This document shows positions 1 to 8,276 of a stretch of 64,000 nucleotides of DNA, one piece after another. Within the stretch, counting starts at the first letter, position 1; every line of letters starts with the position of its first letter. The notes under the pieces are model-generated. The model ran no database searches. It saw only the letters and a program-made list of their open reading frames with translations, and had not been told where the DNA came from. Origin of the DNA: Nevskia soli. Its GTDB lineage: Bacteria; Pseudomonadota; Gammaproteobacteria; Nevskiales; Nevskiaceae. The stretch lies in NCBI GenBank assembly GCA_026224805.1, contig JAMFRN010000017.1, positions 1 through 64,000 on the forward strand, read 5' to 3'. The position numbers and the translations under genes are program-made.

Positions 1-1861
1 ACCCCGCTGCATTCGTACACATTAACGTCAGCGTCGAAGCACCCGGCACCGTAACGGTGGCCGATGCCTGGGTCTTGTTCTGAACCGTGATGGTCTTGTC
101 CCAGCCGGTAACGCCTGCGGGTGCAGAGGAGGCAGCACATACGGTAGCTTCGTCGGTGTAATAGACGAGATCCACCGTTCCACCCGCCGCTACGTTGGCG
201 TCTTCAAGCGCACCCATGATCACCGTCAGGTTATCCGAACGGGTCGCGTCCTCATGACCACCGATGAGCAGGGTGCCGGTGTTGCTGGCATCCAGGTAGG
301 TCTTGAGTGCATTAGCCGCACCGTTGTAAGTGTTGTTCCAAGCCAGATCGACGCGGTAATACGCATCGGGGCAAGGGCCATTCGCAGTGGTAGAACCTGC
401 AGAAGTCTCGACATAGGACAGCCAGCCACGCAACTCTCCAATGGCATCAAACAAAGCCGAACCCGAAGAACCCGTGGTCACGTCACCCGTGTCATTGGTA
501 AAGTCGGCACACCACACCGAAGGGCCATCCGCACCGGGAACGCCCGCCGTTGGGCTACCCGTTCCCTTCGCTTCCTGGCCATTCAGCACCCCAAAGGAGC
601 TGTCCTTGGCATAAGTCATGGGGAAGGCCAGAGCATAATTCAGGCTGAAGCTATACGCCCCGAAGCTCGGATCAGCACTTCCGACATCACCGGTGGTCGG
701 CGCATACGGCACGGTCTTATCGGCGCCCGTCGTATCCTTGGCATTGATGCCCGCCCAGTACGGGTTGGCACCCTGCGGCGGCGCATTGGAACTGCCCAGC
801 AGCATCATGTCAGCGCCAACGACGCAGCTTGACGTACCTGCCGTGCCGATTTGGCAGATGGAGGTCACAGCATGCGGGTTAACGACGTGATCCTGATGAG
901 CAATCACCGTAAAATCGTTGCTGACCGGACCATAAGATGCAGGCAAGCCCGCATACGTTGCAGTGTAGGGGAACGTATTGGTCGCCGCATTGTAGTACGG
1001 GTCGCCGCAATCCCCATCGATGCGGGGCCAGTAAACCGTAATCGTGGCATTGGTGTAGTCCGGAACGCGATCTTCGCCAGCCAGGTGAGCAGCGGTCACC
1101 ACATAAGCATGACCGTCCCCACTGGTGTCATTGACCAGAGTACCCGAACCAGACTCGGACGCCGTATCACTGGAAACCGTGATGGCAACAGCCGCACGCG
1201 ACTGGGTAGCCGAGGTCGAGTCCACCGCGCAGGCGTAGTTCTTCAGCAGGGCTTCGCGGCATGCAGTGGCGTATGGACTAACACTGCAGGGGGTCGGCAA
1301 CGCGGCGGCAGACACGGCCCTGGCCGCATTCCAGAGAGAGGCATTCGACATCTTGGACGCCGGAGACACAGTGGAAGTGGTGGCAAGCGGATTGCTCGCT
1401 CCAACATAGATTTTGTCAGCGGTGATGGACACGCCAGCCGGGTTCACAGCTTTGACCGCCAACGTCAGGGTATCCCCCGGAACGAACACTGAAACGAAGC
1501 GCTGCGGATTGATGTCGGACGGGCTGTAACTGAACATGAAGCCCTGGGTGTTGGTCAGGGTAAGCTCAGAGCCGACAGGGAGCTTCATGCCGGGGAAACG
1601 TAGGGCGAGCATAGAAGCTCCGGGCACCTGGATACTGTCCGACCAGGTATATAGGCCGTCAGCGCCCTTCTGCCAGCCCGTGCCCGTGCTGGAGCTGTCC
1701 AGACGCACCGAACGGGCCATTGCAATCTGTTCCGGGCTGGTGAATTCGCCCCGGACTTCGCTGAGATCCACGGATAGGACGCGGGGAGCGGGTGGACCTT
1801 GCCCCTGAGCAGAGAAGGCTATTCCGACAATAACGCTTAAAGCTAACAGGCTGGTGCGCAT
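1..1861 (-). CDS. Secreted trypsin-like (S1, lysyl-endopeptidase-like) serine protease, 3' end truncated by window edge
   Basis: Reverse-strand reading from ATG at 1861 stays open to position 1 (absent from the ORF track because no stop lies in the window). Translation starts MRTSLLALSVIVGIAFSAQGQGPPAPR (signal peptide), contains GSGTLVNDTSGDGHAYVVTAAHLAGE (His motif TAAH) and GDVTTGSSGSALFDAIGELRGW (Ser motif GSSGS). Confidence 0.8.
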   Translation of the reverse strand, partial: MRTSLLALSVIVGIAFSAQGQGPPAPRVLSVDLSEVRGEFTSPEQIAMARSVRLDSSSTGTGWQKGADGLYTWSDSIQVPGASMLALRFPGMKLPVGSELTLTNTQGFMFSYSPSDINPQRFVSVFVPGDTLTLAVKAVNPAGVSITADKIYVGASNPLATTSTVSPASKMSNASLWNAARAVSAAALPTPCSVSPYATACREALLKNYACAVDSTSATQSRAAVAITVSSDTASESGSGTLVNDTSGDGHAYVVTAAHLAGEDRVPDYTNATITVYWPRIDGDCGDPYYNAATNTFPYTATYAGLPASYGPVSNDFTVIAHQDHVVNPHAVTSICQIGTAGTSSCVVGADMMLLGSSNAPPQGANPYWAGINAKDTTGADKTVPYAPTTGDVGSADPSFGAYSFSLNYALAFPMTYAKDSSFGVLNGQEAKGTGSPTAGVPGADGPSVWCADFTNDTGDVTTGSSGSALFDAIGELRGWLSYVETSAGSTTANGPCPDAYYRVDLAWNNTYNGAANALKTYLDASNTGTLLIGGHEDATRSDNLTVIMGALEDANVAAGGTVDLVYYTDEATVCAASSAPAGVTGWDKTITVQNKTQASATVTVPGASTLTLMCTNAAG

Positions 1862-1960: not shown

Positions 1961-2191
1961 ATGCCCGGAAAGAAGCCGCACAAAATTAGGCGCCTGCTAG
2001 GCGAAAATGTACGGGCCGAGAGGGAGCGGCAGAACTTGAGCCAGGAACAGTTAGCCGAACGCGCTCATCTCGGGCAGCAGTACATCAGCGACGTGGAACT
2101 CGGGAAGAGAAATCTGGGGATCGATTCTCTGGCGACTATCGCAGAAAGTTTGTTGGTAAGCCCTGGAAAATTGCTGGGAAGCTCTGACTGA
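1961..2191 (+). CDS. XRE/Cro-type HTH transcriptional regulator (C-protein-like)
   Basis: 76 aa: IRRLLGENVRAERERQNLSQEQLAERAHLGQQYISDVELGKRNLGIDSLATIAESLLVSPGKLL, a canonical HTH_3 fold pattern. Confidence 0.9.
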   Translation: MPGKKPHKIRRLLGENVRAERERQNLSQEQLAERAHLGQQYISDVELGKRNLGIDSLATIAESLLVSPGKLLGSSD

Positions 2192-2255: not shown

Positions 2256-3524
2256 ATGCCATTTAAACGTCCAGGACACAATCCAAGCGCCAGTGGCCCG
2301 ACTATTCCGCCCTGGCTGGAACTCACTCCGGCGGAAATTGCTGAGCTTGAGCAGGGCGGCATCCCACCCGTCGAACTTGACGAACCCTACATCCTCACCG
2401 GCCTGAAGCTAGGCGTTAAGCCGTTCCTGCTCCCTGCGCACGGGGGAGGACATTTCTTCGAGACCGAAGGGCGCCGCACACAACGGCAGTTACAGCAGAC
2501 GCTCGCAGCCTGGCCTGCGCGAATGAAAGATGGCCGGGCTTGGAGAAATCGCATTCAGTGGGCCTCAACGGCTTCCAGGCCGGGGCTCTACTACCTACCG
2601 CCGGGCGGCGGACCGCCAGCGTATCAAGGCGAGGTGAGGCGGCCGCTGGGGATGGAGGATGGTCTGATCCGCAGCCCACAGGCGTTTCAGTTCCCGATCA
2701 ACACCCCCTTTCTCAAGTGGCCGGGCGGCAAAAGCTTATTGAGCACGATGCTAGACCAGTTATGGCCTACCGCCACACGCTTGGTTGAGCCGTTCACCGG
2801 GGGCGGCTCAATATTCCTCAACACCGTGTTCGACGAATACCTACTCGCGGACACGAATATTGCCTTGATCAACCTTTATCGGGCGCTGCAGCGCACGCCG
2901 AAGGCGGCAATCAAAGACATCGAAGCTCTATTTGTCCCGCGAAACAACGCAGATGCCCGGTTCCGCGTACTGCGCAAACAGTTCAACACCACGCGCAGCA
3001 AGCGAGAGCGCGCCGCATTGTTCGTATACCTGAACCGGCACGCTTTCAATGGGCTTGTGCGCTATAACAGGCTTGGCCAGTTCAATGTGGCATTCGGAAA
3101 ATTTTCCAAGCCGCCTCAATGCCCATCCGACGCCATGAGATTCTTTGCTGACAAGCTCAAGGCATCGAAGGTCGAGATCAAGTGCCAGGATGTCTGGCAG
3201 ACCCTAGCAGAAGTGCGGGCTGGCGACTTGGTCTACTGTGACCCACCCTACTTGCCTCTCACGGCCACCGCGAATTTCGCGAACTATGGCCCCCAGAGCT
3301 TCACACTCGAGCACCAGCGACGACTTGCCGAGGAAGCGGCACGGTTGCGCGACACCCTCGGTGTACCTGTGCTGATTTCCAATCACGACACCCTGCAGGC
3401 ACGACAAATCTACCAGCATGCCGACCAACTCATCACCGGCACCGTGCGCCGCGCCATCTCGGCAAAAGGAGGCAGCCGCCAACCGGCACCGGAGCTTATT
3501 GCCGCTTACTGGCCGACGACGTAA
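2256..3524 (+). CDS. Dam-family DNA adenine methyltransferase with ~150-aa N-terminal extension
   Basis: PFLKWPGGKSLL, VEPFTGGGSIFLN (SAM motif FxGxG), VYCDPPYLPLT (DPPY catalytic motif). Residues before FPINTPFLKWPGGK are not part of the usual Dam fold. Confidence 0.85.
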   Translation: MPFKRPGHNPSASGPTIPPWLELTPAEIAELEQGGIPPVELDEPYILTGLKLGVKPFLLPAHGGGHFFETEGRRTQRQLQQTLAAWPARMKDGRAWRNRIQWASTASRPGLYYLPPGGGPPAYQGEVRRPLGMEDGLIRSPQAFQFPINTPFLKWPGGKSLLSTMLDQLWPTATRLVEPFTGGGSIFLNTVFDEYLLADTNIALINLYRALQRTPKAAIKDIEALFVPRNNADARFRVLRKQFNTTRSKRERAALFVYLNRHAFNGLVRYNRLGQFNVAFGKFSKPPQCPSDAMRFFADKLKASKVEIKCQDVWQTLAEVRAGDLVYCDPPYLPLTATANFANYGPQSFTLEHQRRLAEEAARLRDTLGVPVLISNHDTLQARQIYQHADQLITGTVRRAISAKGGSRQPAPELIAAYWPTT

Positions 3525-4503: not shown

Positions 4504-4881
4504 TCACAGACCTGCTCGCGCGCCGACGCTGCGAGCGGCTTGCTCAAATCCGAGGTGGGCCAATAGGAATCGGTTGTGAGAGCGTCGAGCCAAGGGGTCG
4601 TCGGCATCCCAATTCACGAGCACCCTGGAAATGGGCTGGCCGCAACTGTCTTCCAGGTCGCGGACGACATCGGAGATGTCGTCCGCGTGAGCCGCAAAAA
4701 AGCGGTCAGTGTCCTTGTTGTAGATGAGATGGCTGACAGTGCCCGCTCCGCACCCGCCTATCATCAAGTCTCGAAACGCATCAGCCGCGCCTCGGGGCGA
4801 GTCACGCCCATAGTCATTAAGCCAGCGCCGCACATGGCGCTCCATCTTTGTTGTCGCATACCGCGCAGGTATCTTTCGCAT
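4504..4881 (-). CDS. Hypothetical plasmid/phage-type protein (125 aa)
   Basis: MRKIPARYATTKMERHVRRWLNDYGRDSPRGAADAFRDLMIGGCGAGTVSHLIYNKDTDRFF...; resembles small hypothetical proteins of mobile elements; SD AGGAG upstream of ATG 4881. Confidence 0.6.
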   Translation of the reverse strand: MRKIPARYATTKMERHVRRWLNDYGRDSPRGAADAFRDLMIGGCGAGTVSHLIYNKDTDRFFAAHADDISDVVRDLEDSCGQPISRVLVNWDADDPLARRSHNRFLLAHLGFEQAARSVGARAGL

Positions 4882-4898: not shown

Positions 4899-5117
4899 TT
4901 AAGGGGTGGCGCTGCGCTCCTGCTTGGGAAAGAGGTCGTCGTTCTGCACCGCCATTTCGCAATAGAGGCGCAGCGCCTTTGATACAGTCATGCCGTGCCG
5001 CTGAGCTAGAAGCGCGAAGCGCTCCTTCGTCTCGCGGCTGACATTGAAGTTGATGAGAGAAGGCTCGACCATTTCACCGCTGCCGAGCTTTCTCCCATAC
5101 CGGTTCAACTTTTCCAT
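4899..5117 (-). CDS. Small ribbon-helix-helix-like (Arc/MobC-type) DNA-binding protein
   Basis: MEKLNRYGRKLGSGEMVEPSLINFNVSRETKERFALLAQRHGMTVSKALRLYCEMAV; internal start of ORF 4899..5315; RHH pattern (beta strand INFNVSRE then helix-helix). Confidence 0.6.
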   Translation of the reverse strand: MEKLNRYGRKLGSGEMVEPSLINFNVSRETKERFALLAQRHGMTVSKALRLYCEMAVQNDDLFPKQERSATP

Positions 5118-5181: not shown

Positions 5182-5493
5182 CTACTGTTTTGTTGGCCTC
5201 TTTCCGTGACCCTCCCATATCTCCAGCAGCGTTTGAGGCGACCCGGAAGCGGGTTTGGTGCGCTTGAGCAAGGTTTCCAGCGAGGCTTTCTGGTCTGGCG
5301 CCACCAGAGCTTCACCCAAACGCTCGGGCTCGTTGACCATCAGCCACTCGCCCAGTGCGATCAGAGCGCGGCGTTCCTGCCGGACTGTCGCCTTGACTTC
5401 GCGGGCTGTGACCAACTTCAACTGCGCTTTGGCCTGGCGCAGCTCTACTTCGATGCGCTCGACTCGCGCTGCGGCTTTCTCTCGCGGCGTCAT
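5182..5493 (-). CDS. Mobilization accessory protein (TraD/MobC-like)
   Basis: MTPREKAAARVERIEVELRQAKAQLKLVTAREVKATVRQERRALIALGEWLMV...; position next to relaxase/oriT; ATGA overlap with the upstream gene at 5490-5493. Confidence 0.5.
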   Translation of the reverse strand: MTPREKAAARVERIEVELRQAKAQLKLVTAREVKATVRQERRALIALGEWLMVNEPERLGEALVAPDQKASLETLLKRTKPASGSPQTLLEIWEGHGKRPTKQ

Positions 5494-5726
5494 TGGCGCA
5501 TCCTCCCGACATGGGGGGCCAGTCGGGTGACCCGGCCGCGCCGACGGCTGCCCTTGGTCGGATCGGGTGGTGCTGGCTCCAGGGCTTCGAGCCAATCGAA
5601 TACCTCGTGGTACCAGTCATTCATCGCTACTTCACCTTCACGCTGCCGCTTCGCGAGCCGGTCCCGTATCTCAAAGTTCAGGCGTTCTTCGATTTCGTAC
5701 TTCGTCAACATCGTCATTGAGGTCAT
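5490..5726 (-). CDS. Small hypothetical protein of the mobilization operon
   Basis: 78 aa MTSMTMLTKYEIEERLNFEIRDRLAKRQREGEVAMNDWYHEVFDWLEAL...; ATGA overlap with the 5182..5493 gene. Confidence 0.55.
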   Translation of the reverse strand: MTSMTMLTKYEIEERLNFEIRDRLAKRQREGEVAMNDWYHEVFDWLEALEPAPPDPTKGSRRRGRVTRLAPHVGRMRQ

Positions 5727-5864
5727 CTGCTTTCTCCTGTGGTGGGATTACCTCATTCCCATTCTGCAAATTTCTGGAACTTGTCAATCCCCTCGAGTTG
5801 TGTGTTGACAGCAGCCTGAAAATTCCAAAGATGTAAGAACACGGCCGGTGAGGCAAGCGGCGAA

Positions 5865-5918
5865 AGGCGCGCTCTTAGCGTTGCTGCGCAACGCGAGCGC
5901 ATGACGCGTAGCGCGTCA
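5865..5918 (-). other. Candidate origin of transfer (oriT), R1162/RSF1010-like
   Basis: On the minus strand: hairpin GCGTTGC-GCA-GCAACGC (5894-5878) followed directly by TAAGAGCGCGCCT (5877-5865). Second perfect hairpin TGACGCG-TAG-CGCGTCA at 5902-5918. Lies between the divergent relaxase and accessory mob genes. Confidence 0.6.
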
Positions 5919-5972
5919 CTAAAGCGGAGAAGCAGAAAACACGGCAGACGGAATGGCGGGACGAGGTGGAAG

Positions 5973-7349
5973 GTGAGTATCTATTCGGTGCACATGCAAA
6001 CCATAAAGCGATCCGAGGGGCGGCGGAGCACCGCGTGCGCCGCGTACCGCGCAGGCGCTCGCATTGCCGATGGCCGAACCGGAAAGGTCTTTGACTACCG
6101 GCGACGCAAGGGTGTGCTGCATTCGGAACTTGTCGGCTGGTCCGGCGACCGTGCCGAGCTGTGGAACGCGGCGGAGATAGCCGAGAAGCGGAAGGACAGC
6201 CAGGTTGCACGGGAGTGCGTCATCGCCTTGCCGCATGAGTTGCCCCTGGAAGCGAATATCGAGGCAATGCGCCAGCTCGCCGCCGAGATACGAGAGCGGT
6301 GGTCCGTTGCTGTGGACCTCAACATCCATCAGCATGGCCGCCAGGACACCCGTAACATCCACTGCCATTGCATGACGACTGTGAGGGCCGTCAAGGACAA
6401 TCAATTCGGGAAGAAGACCCGGCAACTGGACGTATCAACTACCGCGAAAATCGAAATCGAATGGCTTCGGGAGATCTGGGAACGCATCGCCAACCGGATG
6501 CTCGCCGAAGCGGGGCTCGATATGAGGATTGACCGGCGCTCGCTGATGGATCGCGGCGAGGCACGCGAAGCAAAGCAGACGCTCGGGCACGCCGCGTCGG
6601 CGTTGGAGCGGAAGGGACAACCCACCGCGCAGGGCGCAGTGAACCGCCAGATCGACACGCAAGAGGAACAGCGGAATGACCTGGAGCGACGGATTGAGCA
6701 ACTGGAAGAGGAGAAGGCCGAGGCAATGATTGATATGCGTCGGCTGGAGTACCAGGAAGCCGAATTGGCACGGCTCAGCTCCATTACCGTAGTCGCACCA
6801 GCGCGCAGCGATGAAGCGATACTGCGCGCTCGTGCGGAATTGATTGAATGCCGGAAAGTGCTTGCCAGCACTTACCGGCTCGTCCCCGTTACCGTGGACG
6901 AATACATCGAGGACCGGCGCTACCACTTGGCCTCACTGACAGCCTACGAACAGTCAGCCCGGCGACATCAAGCATTGGCAGACGAGACCGAGAACGAGCG
7001 GCCTGTATTGACACGACTGGTCAACTGGCTGGGTTGGCGCTCGTTGCTGCCCGACTATGCAGCGCACCGAGAAAAGGCTGCCAAGCGAGCTCGCCAGGTC
7101 CAGCATATCCGTTCCGCCCGCGAACAATACGAAGAGCGCTATGCGGCGCGAATGCGGGGCGAGAATGAGCAGCGGGAAGCCAAGTACCTGAAGCTGCTTG
7201 AGGCGCAGAACAGGGCTTATCAGCGAATTCCCGAACTGACAGATCTAGCATCCAGGCCCATCACTGCGGAGCTTGCGCAACTCGAACATGAGCGCAAAGT
7301 CAGGCTTCTTGCACCAGCGCAGCGGCCGACGCCATCCGGACCGCACTAG
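5973..7349 (+). CDS. MobA/MobL (MOBQ-like) family relaxase
   Basis: Likely GTG start at 5973: VSIYSVHMQTIKRSEGRRSTACAAYRAGARIADGRTGKVFDYRRRKGVLHSEL...; His motif HQHGRQDTRNIHCHCMTTVR; long coiled-coil C-terminus. Confidence 0.8.
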   Translation: MSIYSVHMQTIKRSEGRRSTACAAYRAGARIADGRTGKVFDYRRRKGVLHSELVGWSGDRAELWNAAEIAEKRKDSQVARECVIALPHELPLEANIEAMRQLAAEIRERWSVAVDLNIHQHGRQDTRNIHCHCMTTVRAVKDNQFGKKTRQLDVSTTAKIEIEWLREIWERIANRMLAEAGLDMRIDRRSLMDRGEAREAKQTLGHAASALERKGQPTAQGAVNRQIDTQEEQRNDLERRIEQLEEEKAEAMIDMRRLEYQEAELARLSSITVVAPARSDEAILRARAELIECRKVLASTYRLVPVTVDEYIEDRRYHLASLTAYEQSARRHQALADETENERPVLTRLVNWLGWRSLLPDYAAHREKAAKRARQVQHIRSAREQYEERYAARMRGENEQREAKYLKLLEAQNRAYQRIPELTDLASRPITAELAQLEHERKVRLLAPAQRPTPSGPH

Positions 7350-7451
7350 GCTCAGGTCCGCAACTCGCACGAATTCCGCTGGCGGAGCAAATTGACCCAC
7401 CCAGGGGCGCCGCATTGTGGGTGGCAATCAGGGCCGGTCTAACAGGGGGGA

Positions 7452-8066
7452 CTAGACACCCTCACGCGGCTTGCTGGGCGCCTTGGCGAGGAGCGGCTTG
7501 ACCACCGGGTCAATGTCCGCTTCTTTGGCTTCCCGCGTTGCACGCTGGTTCGTGGCCCGCTCGATTTCAGCCAGGTATTGGGTCTTAGACAAATGTTCGC
7601 GACGGTCTTCCGCCTTTGCCCGGCCGATGGTCGAAAAGAATTCTTCTGGTACTTGGTCGGGGCCGGTGAAAGTGAAGGGCCAGATGATCTTGGCTTCGAG
7701 GTTGCTGCTGATGAAGTCGCTATAGCTTGAAGCCATAAGCCCGAGCTTGCGTCCGCGCGCCGGCTTTTCTAGACGGTCTTCACGCCGTGCTCGCTCGGCA
7801 AACTTCGCCTCGGCGGTGTTGGTGAAGGTTTGGGACTCTACGACCTTGCGAATGGCTTCACGCTGATAACGGATCACACCGCCACCGAGTTTGACGAAGG
7901 GGATTCCAATGCTTCCGCTGTTCCGGTCATCGGCAAGAGTGCCGACAGTGATGCGGAGCAGGAAGGCCGCTTCCTCTGGCATCAACAGCGCGTCCTCTGG
8001 CAGTCCCGCGAGCGCCTTCTTCAGCGCCTGCGCTGTCGCTTCGTCTACAACGGCTTGCTTAGGCAT
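7452..8066 (-). CDS. HTH (excisionase/AlpA-like) domain protein of the mobile region
   Basis: MPEEAAFLLRITVGTLADDRNSGSIGIPFVKLGGGVIRYQREAIRKVV matches the helix-turn-helix_17/excisionase pattern. Confidence 0.6.
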   Translation of the reverse strand: MPKQAVVDEATAQALKKALAGLPEDALLMPEEAAFLLRITVGTLADDRNSGSIGIPFVKLGGGVIRYQREAIRKVVESQTFTNTAEAKFAERARREDRLEKPARGRKLGLMASSYSDFISSNLEAKIIWPFTFTGPDQVPEEFFSTIGRAKAEDRREHLSKTQYLAEIERATNQRATREAKEADIDPVVKPLLAKAPSKPREGV

Positions 8067-8202: not shown

Positions 8203-8276
8203 TGGAGGCTCGAGCCGGAATTGAACCGACGTACGGGGATTTGCAGTCCCCTGCATAACCACTCTGCCATCGAGCC
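8203..8276 (-). tRNA. tRNA-Cys(GCA)
   Basis: Minus strand GGCTCGATGGCAGAGTGGTTATGCAGGGGACTGCAAATCCCCGTACGTCGGTTCAATTCCGGCTCGAGCCTCCA; anticodon loop CTGCAAA; CCA encoded. Confidence 0.95.

Follow-up and report, generated by a model that had tools for sequence, protein, structure and literature searches.

Positions 5861–5918 on the minus strand of the window (the whole 64-kb stretch of DNA that was analyzed) are predicted by sequence comparison to be the origin of transfer (oriT) of a MOBQ mobilization module, a reading to which we give a probability of roughly 0.9; the oriT very probably adds a diverged new representative to an established class. Read on the minus strand from 5920 down to 5862 the site is AGTGACGCGCTACGCGTCATGCGCTCGCGTTGCGCAGCAACGCTAAGAGCGCGCCTTTC, and it contains two hairpins (H2 and H1) and a nick-region core (Table 1). 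An earlier note on this DNA had placed the site between divergent mob genes, and this arrangement is borne out, with a MobC-like gene on the minus strand on one side and a MOBQ relaxase gene on the plus strand on the other. Divergent mobA and mobC genes likewise flank published MOBQ oriTs (PMC3832669).

Table 1. Coordinates of the predicted oriT, its parts and the neighboring features of the window
Feature	Position	Strand	Basis or remark
Hairpin H1, GCGTTGC-GCA-GCAACGC	5878–5894	-	Perfect 7-bp stem, 3-nt loop; expected relaxase recognition hairpin
Nick-region core TAAGAGCGCGCCT	5865–5877	-	Directly 3' of H1; position and strand as for TAAGTGCGCCCTT in homologs
Outer helix GCGCTC (5900–5895) / GAGCGC (5874–5869)	5869–5900	-	Encloses H1 and 3-nt TAA bulge; perfect complement, minimum-energy fold, homolog covariation
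Hairpin H2, TGACGCG-CTA-CGCGTCA	5902–5918	-	Perfect 7-bp stem, 3-nt loop
MOBQ (MobA/MobL) relaxase, 458 aa + stop, GTG start	5973–7352	+	Pfam, NCBIfam, alignment
78-aa ORF between oriT and mobC-like gene	5490–5726	-	No family found
MobC-like relaxosome accessory protein, 103 aa	5182–5493	-	Weak match to pBR1.1 mobilization protein; divergent position as for mobC in homologs
72-aa ORF	4899–5117	-	Weak RelB/DinJ-type similarity, below cut-offs
tRNA-Cys	8203–8276	-	3' end (8203) is putative island border

The site and its relaxase

The perfect hairpin followed directly by a nick core that had been described earlier is present as stated (H1 from 5894 to 5878, then TAAGAGCGCGCCT from 5877 to 5865), although the structure extends further than was then recognized, a 6-bp outer helix having been overlooked. 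The second hairpin also exists, and exactly 54 bp separate it from the relaxase GTG at 5973, as had been claimed; its loop had been given as TAG, which is the plus-strand reading, the loop on the minus strand being CTA.

The relaxase matches Pfam MobA_MobL (6.9e-44), and the best NCBIfam match to its relaxase domain is TraA_Ti (4.3e-58, below the curated cut-off), with MobQ also below its cut-off (1.1e-54; 185.2 bits, cut-off 200); in the PDB its sole sequence match is the NES relaxase, or nicking enzyme (4HT4, E=5.4e-21). Tyr25 and His119, His130 and His132 are invariant among its relatives in the alignment, and for MOBQ4 relaxases Tyr25 and three motif-III histidines are listed as the catalytic residues (PMC6856555). 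The reading frame is intact, and the GTG start is backed by the homologs, in which Met1 and Tyr25 are invariant; an ATG start at 5901 was considered and rejected, since the homologs start at the residue matching 5973. The closest relatives are about 48–51% identical over the relaxase domain (about 48% at best in plasmids, and similar in genomes), so that no close relative was found in the plasmid and genome collections searched. A scan of genome contigs for relatives gave one distant relative, and within its own genome the gene is the only one of the MobA_MobL family.

On the other side of the oriT, the mobC-like gene is transcribed away from the relaxase, in the same place as in homologs; its assignment to mobC is tentative, the 103-aa product matching the pBR1.1 mobilization protein weakly (E=9e-5 for a single comparison). 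In searches against plasmids neither this protein nor the 78-aa ORF product gave a match. The same-strand cluster downstream of the mobC-like gene includes a 125-aa protein (4504–4881, minus strand) that matches DUF7222 (1.3e-14).

Comparison with homologous origins of transfer

Because the relaxase has no close relative, the DNA upstream of its distant relatives was compared instead. With a fixed pattern, a hairpin followed on the same strand by TAA...G(C/T)GC was found in 31 of 52 regions upstream of homologous relaxases, versus 0.08 expected from shuffles, and about 40% of the regions lack the motif under this pattern. In nearly all plasmid relatives with a divergent mobC a hairpin precedes ATAAGTGCGCCCTT or TAAAGTGCGCCCTT, with strand and location unchanged. 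The window has a single hairpin whose stem reaches 7 bp or more and which is followed by the loose core TAA(N0-3)G[CT]GC, and none of 40 dinucleotide shuffles searched on both strands has one; since these hairpin and core patterns were loosened with the window sequence in view, the unbiased test is a 40-position covariance model trained on 26 other MOBQ oriTs, the window being left out. Its best site in the 64 kb is 5861–5901 on the minus strand (30.6 bits, E=1.6e-4), and its second-best match there scores 17.3 bits (E=0.11), both E-values being rough owing to a short calibration. A blastn search of the oriT region against plasmids gave chance-level matches only and no related sequence; with a relaxase that has no close relative, the oriT is thus not alignable at high identity to any experimentally tested oriT.

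The earlier note had called the site an R1162/RSF1010-type oriT. Its MOBQ class and the order hairpin, TAA, GCGC stand, but judged by structure its nearest counterparts are found on small MobQ plasmids and in Ti-type TraA elements rather than in R1162. The MobQ-plasmid oriTs (Sphingobium pYAN-1, Delftia pBR1.1, Comamonas pZM22-2 and, as reported in PMC3832669, Paracoccus pMARC3/pMOS6) share with it the divergent layout of mobC, oriT and mobQ or mobA, as well as H1, TAA, a GTGCGC-like core and the outer helix, and often H2 too. They differ in having GTGCG with the arm CGCAC where the window has GAGCGC with GCGCTC, in a TAA bulge that is usually 4 nt rather than 3, in relaxases about 45–48% identical to that of the window, and in being small plasmids, whereas the window belongs to a chromosomal contig and has the additional 78-aa ORF before mobC. 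Ti-type TraA or rhizobial MOBQ2 oriTs (e.g. L091, L092 and L094: ACGTCGGAACGACGT ATAAGCGCGCCCT) likewise combine a hairpin, TAA and a GCGC core, with a shorter outer pairing (GCGC/GCGC) and a different stem sequence, and the window relaxase, at 458 aa, lacks the long helicase portion found in TraA. The oriT of RSF1010/R1162 IncQ plasmids (MOBQ1) resembles the site in its inverted repeat directly before TAAG.GCGC and in a MOBQ relaxase with Tyr25. However, in the IncQ1 oriT of L113 (AGTTTCTC-GCA-GAGAAAC CGGTAAGTGCGCCC) nothing that abuts the hairpin can serve as a pairing arm for the core, unlike in the window. The 38-bp R1162 oriT has no sequence match to the window beyond the core, its stem being unrelated, and the plasmid matches to this 38-mer and to the window oriT are disjoint types.

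A counterpart of H2 (5 bp or more of stem, 3–12 nt before H1) occurs in 12 of 26 homologous oriTs versus 1.9 expected; in 9 of the 26 its stem reaches 7 bp or more, versus 0.11 expected. These counts are not independent, several of the sites being related to one another. From this comparison H2 appears as a part common to homologous oriTs, which may be bound by the accessory protein or may aid in re-closing the strand.

The published MOBQ consensus core is TAAGTGCGCCCT (PMC3832669). The core of the window agrees with it at 9 of 12 bases and differs in having GAGCGC for GTGCGC, and its variant GCGCGCCTTTC is also present in L066. The TAA anchor together with the outer helix places the expected nick at TAAGAGCG^CGCC, between 5870 and 5869 on the minus strand, while alignment to L066 allows a second predicted position, GCGCG^CC, between 5868 and 5867. 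Ungapped scoring of the core by its distance from H1 was tried and dropped; the window requires a one-base shift, for which the TAA anchor and outer helix account.

Pairing between the core and its flank

GCGCTC, just 5' of H1, is the exact reverse complement of GAGCGC in the core, and H1 thus stands on a 6-bp outer helix. The minimum-energy DNA fold predicted for 5862–5920 (minus strand) consists of H1 on this outer helix together with H2 (-22.7 kcal/mol, z=-3.4), and the same H1/outer-helix structure recurs in the folds predicted for five homologs. In homologs 5–8 bases 5' of H1 pair with the core across a 3–4 nt bulge, the two arms being CGCAC and GTGCG in L017, CCCAC and GTGGG in L027, GCGCGG and CCGCGC in L007, GCACGC and GCGTGC in L008, and GGCACGGT and ACCGTGCC in L071, compared to GCGCTC and GAGCGC in the window. 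When cores were re-dealt among spacers, none of 5000 swaps reached the observed 154 bp of pairing (mean 107.8, maximum 142), a statistic that ignores relatedness among the homologs; slid registers gave 38–85 bp. In a MAFFT alignment of 26 sequences with the window left out, 88% of outer-helix cells are paired and 3 pairs are changed on both sides, and the covariation score of the whole structure is 0.594 versus 0.05–0.09 in slid versions. All six of the six H1 stem pairs counted in homologs vary on both sides.

This pairing accounts for the occurrence of GAGCGC in place of GTGCGC, and on the sequences compared the window is among the clearest cases of an outer helix, because its altered core is matched by an altered arm. 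For the MobQ/TraA group in general, we regard it as an evenly balanced question whether the oriTs share an unrecognized covarying outer helix, such that core and flank co-evolve and the core can drift (GTGCG, GTGGG, CCGCG, GCGTG, GAGCG), with the helix possibly read by relaxase specificity and H2, at a fixed distance, as a further common part. A literature search conducted mostly outside subscription journals found no published description of an outer helix for MOBQ oriTs. In MOBP-type oriTs of the staphylococcal pWBG749 family branched hairpins lie beside the core (PMC4652767), giving a precedent for core-flanking structure of this kind.

The matched arms also bear on whether the site still works. 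An oriT that was functional in an ancestor, and whose altered core GAGCGC is no longer cut, would be consistent with the departure from the consensus and with the lack of a helper type IV secretion system (T4SS) in a genome that is 84% complete. We consider such decay unlikely, however, as the relaxase frame is intact and retains the catalytic residues, both hairpins are perfect, and the change in the core is answered in the opposite arm, as it is in L027, L007, L008 and L071. It is considerably less probable still that the hairpins act in gene expression instead, as a terminator, an attenuator or repressor-binding palindromes for divergent promoters: at none of 45 sites is H1 followed by a T-run, whichever strand is read, no Rfam family reaches its gathering threshold, and a strand-specific nick core is conserved beside H1. 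The location between two divergent genes would suit such a function, and since relaxosome proteins often repress mob genes too, it could be an additional role, especially of H2. Short palindromes form easily in GC-rich DNA, but it is scarcely credible that chance alone, or a repetitive element with no link to the relaxase, accounts for the site given the empty shuffles, the independent covariance-model match and the lack of any further site of this kind in the window.

In the predicted oriT, the relaxase, probably with the help of the MobC-like protein, would bind H1 on the locally opened minus strand, cut at the expected position with Tyr25 and remain on the 5' end, so that on the departing minus strand the mobC side would lead and the relaxase gene would trail, exit being through a T4SS and coupling protein supplied by a helper element. 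Through the outer helix the nick core would become part of an extended stem that carries a TAA bulge; the helix would probably serve to position or gate the core, both when the strand is cut and when it is re-joined as transfer finishes. As no T4SS was found in the genome, this activity may be dormant.

Genomic setting and significance

Similarity to the DNA of same-genus genomes starts exactly at the 3' end of the tRNA-Cys gene (8203), and beyond this point the DNA differs among those genomes, as at a tRNA insertion site. At the same-genus loci compared (L034–L057) the 3' side of tRNA-Cys carries different DNA in most genomes, which suggests an insertion hotspot in the genus. Judged from these sequences, the module looks like part of a helper-dependent mobilizable island ending at the tRNA-Cys 3' end. 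Transfer would depend on a helper, since the genome, at 84% completeness, yielded no match to a VirB4-type protein or a coupling protein (T4CP); in having its own relaxase and no T4SS found, the island resembles a canonical integrative mobilizable element (IME). The contig begins at window base 1, so that neither the other end of the island nor its integrase and att pair can be seen; integrase genes occur on other contigs of the genome only, and a search of the genome for a second copy of the tRNA-Cys att, allowing up to 3 mismatches in 25 bases, gave none.

Beside the tRNA-Cys border, a 204-aa protein (7452–8066, minus strand) has weak HTH_17 similarity, below the cut-off, and could be an excisionase-like or regulatory protein. 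An XRE-type HTH regulator (1961–2191, plus strand) is followed by a Dam-family adenine methyltransferase (2256–3524; TIGR00571, 7.2e-67) that has a long N-terminal extension, with no restriction gene recognized alongside. A long ORF (2–1861, minus strand) that is open to the contig start has weak trypsin-like peptidase similarity (E=0.023, below the cut-off) and may encode secreted cargo of the island.

The analysis provides a precise predicted oriT for a relaxase that has no close relative, and a proteobacterial island that apparently carries its own relaxase, with no T4SS found. According to a 2017 review no canonical IME of this relaxase-but-no-T4SS kind was known in Proteobacteria (PMC5704250), and later work may differ. 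Since a site missed by blastn is recovered with the 40-position structure model, inclusion of a covarying outer helix would improve oriT detection, and the outer helix suggests a route by which nick cores may diverge and yet stay functional.
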